Positions 36,124 to 39,096 of a DNA stretch of 64,000 nucleotides are shown here, piece after piece (position 1 is the first letter of the stretch; every line of letters begins with the position of its first letter). Both the position numbers and the translations under genes were made by a program. Origin of the DNA: Haloarcula sp. H-GB4. GTDB lineage: Archaea; Halobacteriota; Halobacteria; Halobacteriales; Haloarculaceae. The stretch covers positions 1,178,001 to 1,242,000 of the forward strand of contig NZ_JAVDDX010000002.1 in the NCBI RefSeq assembly GCF_030848575.1. The letters run 5' to 3'. The notes beneath the pieces are model-generated. The model ran no database searches and was not told where the DNA came from. It saw only the letters and a list, made by a program, of their open reading frames with translations.

Positions 36124-37239
36124 TCAGGCGTTGTCGGGGTCAGTCGGCACGCTGATGTCGCCGCCGATGATGCTCTGGCGGACTTCGGACACCTCGTCTT
36201 TGACGCTCTGTGGGATTTCCGAACCGAGCTGCTGACCGTACACCGCTTCAACGCCGTTCTGTTCGAGGCCGAGGGTGTTCACAGTGCCGCCCTCAAAGTT
36301 GTCATTCGTTGTCGACTCAACGGCAGTGTAGACGGCGTTATCGACCCGTTTGACCATGCTCGCGAGGATAATATCGCTGAAGTTCTCTTTCGTGACCGAC
36401 TGGTCACGGTCGACGCCGACTGCGAAGCGCCCGGCCTCCTGAGCCGCACGGAACACGCCAGTTCCGGTGTTGCCGGCCGCATGGTAGACAATGTCCGCAC
36501 CGGATTCGTACATCGAGAGGGCCGCCTCCTGCCCGCCGGAGGGATCGTTGAAGTCGCCGACGTAGGCTGACTGGATGTCGACGTCCTCCTCTGCGTGCTT
36601 GACGCCGGCTTTGTAGCCGGCTTCGAAGCGACCGATGAGGTCACCCTCGACGCCGCCGACGAAGCCGACGCTCGCGGAGTCACTCTGCGTGGAGCCGGCT
36701 CCAGCCGAGAAGTCCTGACTGGTCAGCTTCGCGGCCATCAGCCCGATGAGGAACGAGCCCTGATGCTCACCGAACACGTACGAGCCGACGTTGTCCGCGT
36801 CAACGACGGAGTCAACGATCATGAAGTCCTGCTCGGGGTACTGTTCAGCGTTCTCGGTGAGGGCGTCCGCCTGCAGGAAGCCGATACAGCAGATGAGGTC
36901 GTAGTTCGGGTTCGAGGACTGCGCATACTGTTGCTGGAGGCTGCCGAAGTCCTGTACCGCTTCCGGCTGCGACTCATCGTATTCGATGTTTAGCTCGTCT
37001 GCTGCCCGGATAGCGCCGGTCTGAGCCTGATCGTTGAACGATCCGTCACCGAGCCCGCCCGTCGCGTACACCATTCCGATACGAGCAGCCGGACCGCTGT
37101 CACCGTCGCCACCGTCCCCGCCATCGCTGTCGGTGTCGCCGCCGCTGCCGTCGCCGCCATCGCCACCGAGGCAGCCGGCTAACCCGATTGCGGTTGCGGT
37201 ACCAACACTACTGATGAACGTGCGCCTTCGCTGTGACAT
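36124..37239 (-). CDS. BMP-family (nucleoside-type) binding lipoprotein
   Basis: 371 aa. Start ATG 37239 (MSQRRRTFISSVGTATAIGL...) gives a Tat lipobox LAGC followed by a Gly/Asp-rich linker; longer frames upstream have no signal. The BMP (PF02608) signatures are VYATGGLGDGSFNDQA and YHAAGNTGTGVFRAAQEAG. The domain binds purine nucleosides in well-studied relatives; the ligand here is inferred. A TTTAAC box lies ~30 nt before the ATG, so it is probably leaderless. It heads the ABC operon: lipoprotein, double ATPase, two permeases. Confidence 0.9.
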   Translation of the reverse strand: MSQRRRTFISSVGTATAIGLAGCLGGDGGDGSGGDTDSDGGDGGDGDSGPAARIGMVYATGGLGDGSFNDQAQTGAIRAADELNIEYDESQPEAVQDFGSLQQQYAQSSNPNYDLICCIGFLQADALTENAEQYPEQDFMIVDSVVDADNVGSYVFGEHQGSFLIGLMAAKLTSQDFSAGAGSTQSDSASVGFVGGVEGDLIGRFEAGYKAGVKHAEEDVDIQSAYVGDFNDPSGGQEAALSMYESGADIVYHAAGNTGTGVFRAAQEAGRFAVGVDRDQSVTKENFSDIILASMVKRVDNAVYTAVESTTNDNFEGGTVNTLGLEQNGVEAVYGQQLGSEIPQSVKDEVSEVRQSIIGGDISVPTDPDNA

Positions 37240-37353
37240 GTCCCACCAGCGGTGTCGATAGGCGTTAAAGACTTCGGTGTCGCACATTAGCCACAACGGC
37301 GACAAATCATGGCAAGGCGGGCCGATCACCGTTCGACGCCGACGCCGCGGACA

Positions 37354-37444
37354 TTTTATGTACTGGGTGTGAACGGCTGGCAATGACAGTCTGGTCGCGT
37401 TCACACAGCAACAACTGGCAGGCCCCAACGGGGCCCGGCACGCG
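37354..37444 (+). promoter_or_regulatory. structured leader of pit with 21-codon uORF
   Basis: TTTATGTA (37355-37362) is a TATA-like box ~26 nt before ATG 37383. That ATG starts a 21-codon frame (MTVWSRSHSNNW...), whose TGA (37446-37448) overlaps the GTG start of pit as GTGA. A perfect 9-bp inverted repeat GTGTGAACG (37367-37375) / CGTTCACAC (37398-37406) brackets the presumed transcript start, and GGCCCC-AAC-GGGGCC (37421-37435) is a hairpin just before pit. This looks like a regulated leader. Confidence 0.5.
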
Positions 37445-37448
37445 GTGA
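37383..37448 (+). CDS. 21-codon putative leader ORF overlapping pit
   Basis: ATG 37383 to TGA 37446-37448 encodes 21 residues, beginning MTVWSRSHSNNWQAP and ending GPGTR. The TATA-like box is placed for a leaderless start at this ATG, and its TGA overlaps pit GTG as GTGA, the standard coupling overlap. It could be a peptide that controls pit translation or an accidental frame. Confidence 0.4.
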   Translation: MTVWSRSHSNNWQAPTGPGTR

Positions 37449-38638
37449 CCCCCGTCGTCTTCTGGGCGCTAGTCGCCCTCGCGACGATCACCGGGCTGGT
37501 GACGGCCTGGACACTCGGTGCGAACAGCAACTCACCGCCGTTCGCGCCGGCTATCGGTGCGAACGCCATCTCGACGATGCGTGCTGCCTTCCTGATCGGC
37601 ATCCTCGCCGCGATGGGGGCACTGACCCAGGGCGGGAGCATTTCGGAAACGGTCGGCGCCGGCCTCATCGACGGTGCCACGATCACATCGCTCGCAGCCG
37701 TTGCCGGACTGTTGACCGCGACGGGGTTCATGGCGTTTGGAATCTACTCGGGCTACCCCGTTCCGGCGGCGTTCGCGACGACGGGCGCGATGGTCGGCGT
37801 CGGCCTCTCGCTCGGCGGGCAGCCGGTGTTCGACACTTACCGTCGCATCGCCATATTCTGGCTGCTCGTCCCACCTGTGTCGGGGAGCTTGGCCTACCTC
37901 ACCGCGACAGTGTTGCGCCGGGACGACATCCCCGAAACGGTCGGTGTCCCGCTGCTCGCCGGCGTCGTCGGGGGTATCGTCGCCAATGTCCAGTTGAGCA
38001 TCATCCCGTCGCCCGCTGGCACCGAACAGGGCTCGCTGGCCGGCTTTGCTGCAATGGTCGCTGGAACGGATATCGCCGCCGTCGCCGCGACGCTACTAGT
38101 CGCCGCCGGGAGCTTTTACTACATCCGCCGGCAGACCCAGGCCTCCGTCGACAAGGGCATCAAGACCTTTCTCGTCGTTCTCGGCAGCGTCGTTGCCTTC
38201 TCTAGCGGCGGTAGTCAGGTCGGCCTCGCGACCGGGCCACTGGAGAACCTTTACCGCGCAGAACTCGGCCTGCCCGGAGTCGTGTTGCTGGCGCTCGGCG
38301 CAGTGGGTATCCTCGGCGGTGCGTGGATGGGCGCGCCCCGCCTGTTACAGGCGACCTCCCGCGAGTACGCGCAACTCGGCGTCCGCCGCTCCATCGCGGC
38401 GCTGGTCCCCGGCTTCATCATCGCGCAGGCTGCCATCGCGCTGGGTATTCCCATCTCGTTTAACAACATCATTATTTCCGGCGTCATCGGCGGCGGCCTG
38501 GCCGGCGGCTCCGCCGGCGTCTCTCGCCGGAAAATAGGTGTGACTGTCGGGTTCTGGCTCATCACGCTCGCCACTAGCGTCGTAATCGGCTTCGGCGTGT
38601 ATCAGGTGCTGGAAGCGATCCTCGGGAGCCAGGTCTGA
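37445..38638 (+). CDS. pit: PiT-family inorganic phosphate permease
   Basis: 397-aa inorganic phosphate transporter of the PiT family (two repeats, ~10 helices). Signature in repeat 1: AWTLGANSNSPPFAPAIGANAIS (~21-43). In repeat 2 the Gly-rich block is SFNNIIISGVIGGGLAGG (~350-367). GTG 37445 is the start; there is no other in-frame start before the membrane part. A convergent UspA gene follows. Usp adjacency to PiT-type genes is seen in other haloarchaea (recalled). Confidence 0.9.
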   Translation: MTPVVFWALVALATITGLVTAWTLGANSNSPPFAPAIGANAISTMRAAFLIGILAAMGALTQGGSISETVGAGLIDGATITSLAAVAGLLTATGFMAFGIYSGYPVPAAFATTGAMVGVGLSLGGQPVFDTYRRIAIFWLLVPPVSGSLAYLTATVLRRDDIPETVGVPLLAGVVGGIVANVQLSIIPSPAGTEQGSLAGFAAMVAGTDIAAVAATLLVAAGSFYYIRRQTQASVDKGIKTFLVVLGSVVAFSSGGSQVGLATGPLENLYRAELGLPGVVLLALGAVGILGGAWMGAPRLLQATSREYAQLGVRRSIAALVPGFIIAQAAIALGIPISFNNIIISGVIGGGLAGGSAGVSRRKIGVTVGFWLITLATSVVIGFGVYQVLEAILGSQV

Positions 38639-38664: not shown

Positions 38665-39096
38665 TTACCGGACGACCGTCACCGTCACCGGCGCTTCGCT
38701 GACGACCGCCGTCGCAACGGTCCCCAGCAGCCGCCGGGCAATCTCGTTTCGCGTCCCGCCGTGGCCACCCATCACCACCTGATCCACGTCAGCCTCCTCG
38801 ACGTAGTCCAGAATCGTTTCGGCCGGGTCACCGGTCTCGACGGCCGTCTCGACCTGTTGGCCGGCCTCGCTGGCCAGCTGTGATGCCCGGTCGACGAGTT
38901 CCGTTGCCCGCTCGTCGGCGGCCGCTTGGCGCTCCGCATCTGGTTCGAGTAAGCCGCCTTCGCTCATCCCCGTATCGAGCGGCGCAACGACGTTCAGGAC
39001 CGTAATCCGGCAGTCGAACGTCTCCAGCGCGTACGTCAGCGCCTCATCAGCCAGCGGTGAGCCGTCCAGCGGGACAAGGACGTGTGTCGGTGTCAT
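38665..39096 (-). CDS. UspA-type universal stress protein
   Basis: 143 aa from ATG 39096 (MTPTHVLVPLDGSPLADEAL). The ATP-binding signature GGHGGTRNEIARRLLGTVA (G-x2-G-x9-G-T) is intact and the C-terminus EAPVTVTVVR is typical. A longer upstream frame to 39162 is not supported. It is convergent with pit; a link to phosphate metabolism is only positional. Confidence 0.9.
   Translation of the reverse strand: MTPTHVLVPLDGSPLADEALTYALETFDCRITVLNVVAPLDTGMSEGGLLEPDAERQAAADERATELVDRASQLASEAGQQVETAVETGDPAETILDYVEEADVDQVVMGGHGGTRNEIARRLLGTVATAVVSEAPVTVTVVR

Follow-up and report, generated by a model that had tools for sequence, protein, structure and literature searches.

A leaderless micro-ORF conserved ahead of the haloarchaeal permease gene pit, a candidate device for translation by termination-reinitiation

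Introduction

Leaderless mRNAs predominate in haloarchaea. Coupling between neighbouring frames has been studied in Haloferax volcanii, where it was strict in 13 of the 14 overlapping gene pairs tested (Huber et al. 2019, PMC6728339) and where reinitiation falls steeply with the distance between stop and start, being nearly abolished at about 20 nt (Huber et al. 2023, PMC10666635). In the 5'-UTRs of the same organism SD motifs are unused for initiation (PMC3986360). Short frames have also been described in front of genes. In mycobacteria, leaderless small ORFs carry an RTGA stop that overlaps the next start, and ribosome delivery was proposed for them (Shell et al. 2015, PMC4633059); ribosome delivery by short upstream ORFs (uORFs) is likewise put forward as a coupling function in a recent review (PMC12548453). 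In H. volcanii, Babski et al. (2016, PMC4983044) described ORFs of 15–31 aa ahead of genes, some of which encode transporters.

The locus that we analysed here, pit of Haloarcula sp. H-GB4, resembles each of these systems in part. With the H. volcanii pairs (PMC6728339, PMC10666635) it shares a stop and a start that overlap or lie a few nucleotides apart, a tight dependence on that distance and, as we propose, a downstream start reached via termination of the upstream frame. The upstream partner is, however, a real gene in those pairs, whereas at pit it is a frame of 5–40 codons, depending on the species, with no conserved product and located at the 5' end of a predicted leaderless transcript. 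The mycobacterial small ORFs (PMC4633059) are leaderless and end in a similar overlap, but they are bacterial, precede other genes and in some cases encode conserved cysteine-rich peptides suggestive of attenuation, while the pit uORFs show no conserved codons. As for the set of Babski et al. (PMC4983044), it is haloarchaeal but consists of transcripts with 5'-UTRs of 150–250 nt, its table does not include pit, and the uORF section of that paper has a scope other than class-wide conservation or stop/start coupling.

Results

Organization of the pit upstream region

The window, by which we mean the whole stretch of 64,000 nucleotides that was analysed, carries pit on the plus strand (positions 37445 to 38638), as are all the features described below unless stated otherwise. 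The gene starts with GTG and encodes a PHO4-family anion permease of 397 aa, putatively of the phosphate type (PF01384, 7e-42). The BRE/TATA box assigned to its transcript, CGGACATTTTATGT (37348 to 37361), scored 6.2 with a matrix built from other loci. Its TATA core, TTTATGTA, occupies positions 37354 to 37361, and the first T, at 37354, is located 29 nt from an ATG at 37383. This ATG opens a frame of 21 codons, of the leaderless type (37383 to 37448), whose translation is MTVWSRSHSNNWQAPTGPGTR and whose TGA (37446 to 37448) overlaps the GTG of pit (37445 to 37447), forming a GTGA (37445 to 37448); the same architecture is found at other pit loci. A preliminary description of this DNA had pointed to the sequence at 37354, to this frame, to a perfect 9-bp inverted repeat and to a GC-rich hairpin, and all four were found where it had placed them. 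The left arm of the repeat, GTGTGAACG, spans positions 37367 to 37375 and the right arm, CGTTCACAC, positions 37398 to 37406, inside codons 6–8 of the uORF. The hairpin, GGCCCC-AAC-GGGGCC (37421 to 37435), has its arms at 37421 to 37426 and 37430 to 37435. For context, the divergent neighbour of pit encodes a Bmp/PnrA-type ABC substrate-binding lipoprotein (36124 to 37239, minus strand; PF02608, 2e-57).

The pit product belongs to the PHO4/PiT family, with 144.1 bits on PF01384 for a gathering score of 33.7, and its closest solved structure is the phosphate transporter 6L85 (6e-15). Its sole NCBIfam match was to the sulfate permease CysP model and was subthreshold (53 bits for a cut-off of 400). 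The substrate may thus be phosphate or sulfate. Nearly all pit orthologues begin 4–5 codons ahead of a conserved FW motif, and because their starts keep this distance, GTG 37445 is supported as the start of pit. The uORF is neither the product of a frameshift nor an alternative N-terminus of pit, since its frame with respect to pit differs among lineages and homology fixes the pit start. The same genome contains several more PHO4 paralogues, and the uORF arrangement was found at none of the five that we examined. The gene that immediately follows pit (38668 to 39096, minus strand) encodes a single-domain universal stress protein, which echoes the usp-pit linkage met in other lineages.

Conservation of the uORF among orthologous loci

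From genome collections with one genome per species we obtained 169 usable haloarchaeal orthologous loci, 102 of them non-redundant once near-identical upstream regions had been removed. The H. marismortui-type clade is represented by 13 distinct sequences, each of which keeps the 21-codon frame of the window with no indel. Beyond this clade the DNA ahead of pit is no longer related in sequence, yet the same layout recurs across dozens of genera: a BRE/TATA box followed after about 30 nt by an ATG, and a short frame stopping at pit. The ATG-stop frame seen in the window is therefore retained in relatives. Altogether, 52 of the 102 non-redundant loci display this architecture with a scored TATA box. 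Their uORFs measure 5–40 codons and end with TGA (43 loci), TAG (5) or TAA (4); one of them starts with GTG. The commonest form has exactly 10 codons, with its ATG at −35 and its stop ending at −2; it was found in Halorubrum, Halobellus, Halosimplex, Halobaculum and others, with TGA, TAA or TAG as the stop and GTG as the start at one locus. On the tree of pit proteins, 41 of the 50 rows of one supported clade have the uORF, and the label changes five times overall.

About one third of the non-redundant loci had no clear uORF by these criteria, and many of these lie on other branches of the tree. In the lineages with usp-pit operons (Haloferax, Halogeometricum, Halorarius, Natrialbaceae), the stop of the upstream frame and the start of pit share 4 nt, as they do in the window. 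The upstream partner is there not a micro-ORF but a tandem universal stress protein gene, some 290–320 codons long, which would make it a long-gene form of this device; pit comes second in such an operon at L010, L018, L050, L061 and L068, with overlaps of 4–7 nt. In a few lineages (L069, L072, L077, L167) pit itself is apparently leaderless, its ATG being located some 29–30 nt past a TATA-like box that was read by eye. It seems, then, that pit is usually reached either via coupling or as a leaderless start. Exceptions were frames whose stop lay at +46 (L041 and L108), at −33 (L175) or at −19 (Haloarchaeobius, L038 and L043). At L041 and L108 the leaderless ATG opens a frame that passes through nine consecutive Gs and extends 46 nt into pit, and another frame stops at −6; an indel in this stretch of Gs is possible.

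Start and stop positions of the uORF in held-out loci

The positions of the start and stop codons were then analysed with a 12-position BRE/TATA matrix trained only on 17 loci whose ATG is at −35. Protein homology served to place the pit starts, and neither the matrix nor the pit start made use of the stop of the frame. The held-out set comprised 44 non-redundant loci whose TATA box scored 5 or more. At 36 of them a start codon followed the first T of this box at a distance of 29–32 nt, with a sharp peak at 30–31, and at 34 of these 36 the first in-frame stop fell within −8 to +8 nt of the pit start. When the same loci were read in frames +1 and +2, a stop near the pit start was observed in 2 and 4 cases, respectively. 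Dinucleotide shuffles of the spacers gave a 35% chance per locus of a stop near the start, meaning that 12.6 such stops were expected (compare with 34 observed). The corresponding P is about 4e-28 if the loci are independent; they are related, so that this nominal value overstates their independence, but start and stop positions combine in 31 different ways among the 36 loci. Considering all 52 uORF loci, the ATG lies anywhere from 14 to 118 nt ahead of pit, with a TATA distance of 29–34 nt, nearly always 29–31. Because the distance from ATG to pit varies while those from TATA to ATG and from stop to pit hold, the position of the start follows that of the promoter, and the position of the stop that of the gene. 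The uORF architecture is thus very strongly beyond chance.

Over 0.8 Mb of this genome, the TATA-start spacing of leaderless genes peaked at 29–32 nt, with 26 at 30 nt for a background of about 2–3. The 29 nt separating TATA and AUG in the window fall within this peak, as does the spacing of 29–32 nt at the 36 held-out loci. At the other end of the frame, the 4-nt overlap of the GTGA lies within the distance allowed for termination-reinitiation (an overlap or up to about 10 nt), and the stop-start distances of the pit loci are all in the range of efficient reinitiation in Haloferax volcanii (PMC10666635).

The same 0.8 Mb served as a control for the layout as a whole. It contained 114 TATA-like sites with an ATG at 29–32 nt; 77 of them opened frames of at least 60 codons, that is, ordinary leaderless genes, and 28 opened short frames. 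Only four of these 28 were coupled to a downstream gene, for 0–5 at control distances. Since coupled short frames are no commoner than at control distances, the uORF-gene layout is not a general by-product of promoters. Two of the four coupled cases proved to be conserved in Haloarcula. One is an enoyl-CoA hydratase-like gene (L227, G000:C2:655412-656203, plus strand), preceded in 12 Haloarcula species by a leaderless-type uORF of 9 codons, MQLPRRDIR and a stop, with an ATGA/GTGA overlap. The other is a sulfatase-like gene (L252, G000:C2:403490-404905, minus strand) whose uORF of 28–35 codons diverges in sequence, has a stop that overlaps or abuts the start of the gene, and is kept in most of the 24-odd Haloarcula species compared. 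A third candidate, a gene of the Lrp family, was a false positive, its upstream frame failing the conservation comparison, and this comparison can therefore give a negative answer.

The uORF peptide

Both the sequence and the length of the peptide vary freely between groups, and the peptide is barely conserved. Across groups we found no conserved regulatory codons and no arrest sequence; a weak constraint appeared inside the −35 group only, with a pN/pS of 0.68 (1.42 and 0.97 for the two alternative frames). Some peptides of this group share an M-x-R-T-P-V-[SR]-G-G-R similarity, the GG of which falls on an SD-like GGAGG. In the clade of the window, uORF codons 10–20 change freely. An SD-like motif precedes pit at many uORF loci, strong in 20 of the 52 and weaker in 18. 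The preliminary description had made pit translation depend on a short leader peptide. What stands of this is the coupled leaderless uORF; such freedom of sequence and length makes a leader peptide in the sense of an attenuator unlikely.

The inverted repeat and the hairpin

In the 0.8 Mb analysed, perfect 9-bp repeats with a spacer of 0–40 have a frequency of 0.049 per 100 nt, and the presence of the dyad is borderline with respect to chance. The exact pit dyad is found at a single site in the genome, and its inner bases are invariant within the clade, including the third positions of uORF codons 5–8. In the left arm, 8 of 9 bases are invariant in the 13-sequence clade; its core GTGAAC is also present in Haloarcula relatives without the right arm, and GTGTGAAG is found at the same place before the unrelated enoyl-CoA hydratase gene. 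The left arm is best read as a promoter-proximal element of the −10 type, at the site of the haloarchaeal −10. The right arm is confined to the clade, where six of its bases are invariant, two are changed in L091 without compensation and one in L095; it was absent from the relatives compared outside the clade, so that the full dyad is limited to one Haloarcula clade. Since this conservation of the right arm extends to third codon positions, a DNA or RNA element may be located there. The dyad itself is not an RNA hairpin, since with a transcript start at 37383 its left arm is not transcribed. The repeat, one of the elements from which a regulated start had been proposed, thus exists, but its role as an operator is doubtful, the left arm being a probable −10-type element that recurs without the right arm.

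The GC-rich hairpin just upstream of pit had been given a part in the same regulation, which our data do not sustain. It is broken in most relatives of the clade, and its folding is not beyond chance (z = +0.39 against shuffles); we consider it probably incidental. In six pit upstream sequences the folding z ranged from 0 to +1.9, indicating no conserved RNA structure, and the pit leader gave no Rfam match up to E = 1.

Discussion

The reading that we favour, with a probability of about 0.8, is that pit receives its ribosomes from a leaderless micro-ORF, via termination-reinitiation. We infer from the anatomy of the region that the pit mRNA starts at ATG 37383 or 1–2 bases from it. A ribosome would load on the leaderless AUG at the 5' end of the mRNA, translate the 21 codons of the uORF, terminate at TGA 37446 to 37448 and re-initiate directly on the overlapping GTG. 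The uORF would then be a ribosome-delivery device, in which selection keeps the AUG 29–32 nt from the TATA box and the stop at the pit start and leaves the peptide and its length nearly free, and it would fill the role that falls, in other lineages, to a usp gene with a 4-nt overlap with pit. Because initiation in the 5'-UTRs of H. volcanii does without SD motifs, the internal GTG of pit would need such a delivery. Some direct initiation at pit is possible, since SD-like motifs precede the gene in many uORF loci.

Those motifs would also fit a frame that is merely incidental, if the 5'-UTR happened to begin with AUG in GC-rich DNA with few stops and if ribosomes initiated directly at the internal GTG; shuffled spacers do bring a stop near the start at 35% of held-out loci. 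Such a reading is strongly disfavoured by the 34 stops observed for 12.6 expected and by their near absence from frames +1 and +2. Moreover, the position of the stop is held while its identity changes, the pattern holds over ATG-pit distances of 14 to 118 nt, and the genomic control yielded only 4 coupled frames in 28, within the 0–5 of control distances, the Lrp-family gene failing the very comparison that pit passes. Of similarly low, if not slightly lower, probability is a functional micropeptide acting in trans or with the permease: the similarity inside the −35 group would suit it, but its GG falls on the SD-like GGAGG, the frames of 5–40 codons are unrelated in sequence between groups, and codons 10–20 vary freely in the clade of the window.

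A regulatory switch, in which reinitiation on pit or decoding of the uORF would respond to phosphate, another anion or stress, the leader would set or gate the synthesis of the permease and the dyad would possibly be the operator of a repressor at the start site, is a less remote alternative, although we regard it as rather unlikely. It would account for the uORF being kept where a leaderless pit start could do, as L069, L072, L077 and L167 show to be possible, and it is consistent with the uniqueness of the dyad in the genome, with its invariant inner bases at third codon positions and with the weak frame-specific constraint of the −35 group. An attenuator that counts particular codons is nevertheless at odds with a peptide that differs in both sequence and length from group to group, RNA structure and Rfam matches give no sign of a switch, and the full dyad belongs to one clade only and has two bases changed without compensation in L091.

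Coming back to ribosome delivery by the micro-ORF, the conservation of the layout at no fewer than two other Haloarcula genes means that uORF-coupled genes may form a small general class. That haloarchaea possess a class of leaderless micro-uORF-coupled genes whose product depends on regulated reinitiation, linked at pit to anion supply or ribosome recycling, is a tentative idea that we hold to be improbable at present; to our knowledge, regulated reinitiation via leaderless micro-uORFs has no described case in archaea. Frames this short are easily missed by automated annotation. The pit gene offers a widely conserved and sharply testable archaeal case of a 5–40 codon frame whose sole visible job would be to supply ribosomes to the next start, and it bears on how haloarchaea may initiate at internal, often GTG, starts without the need for SD motifs in the leader.
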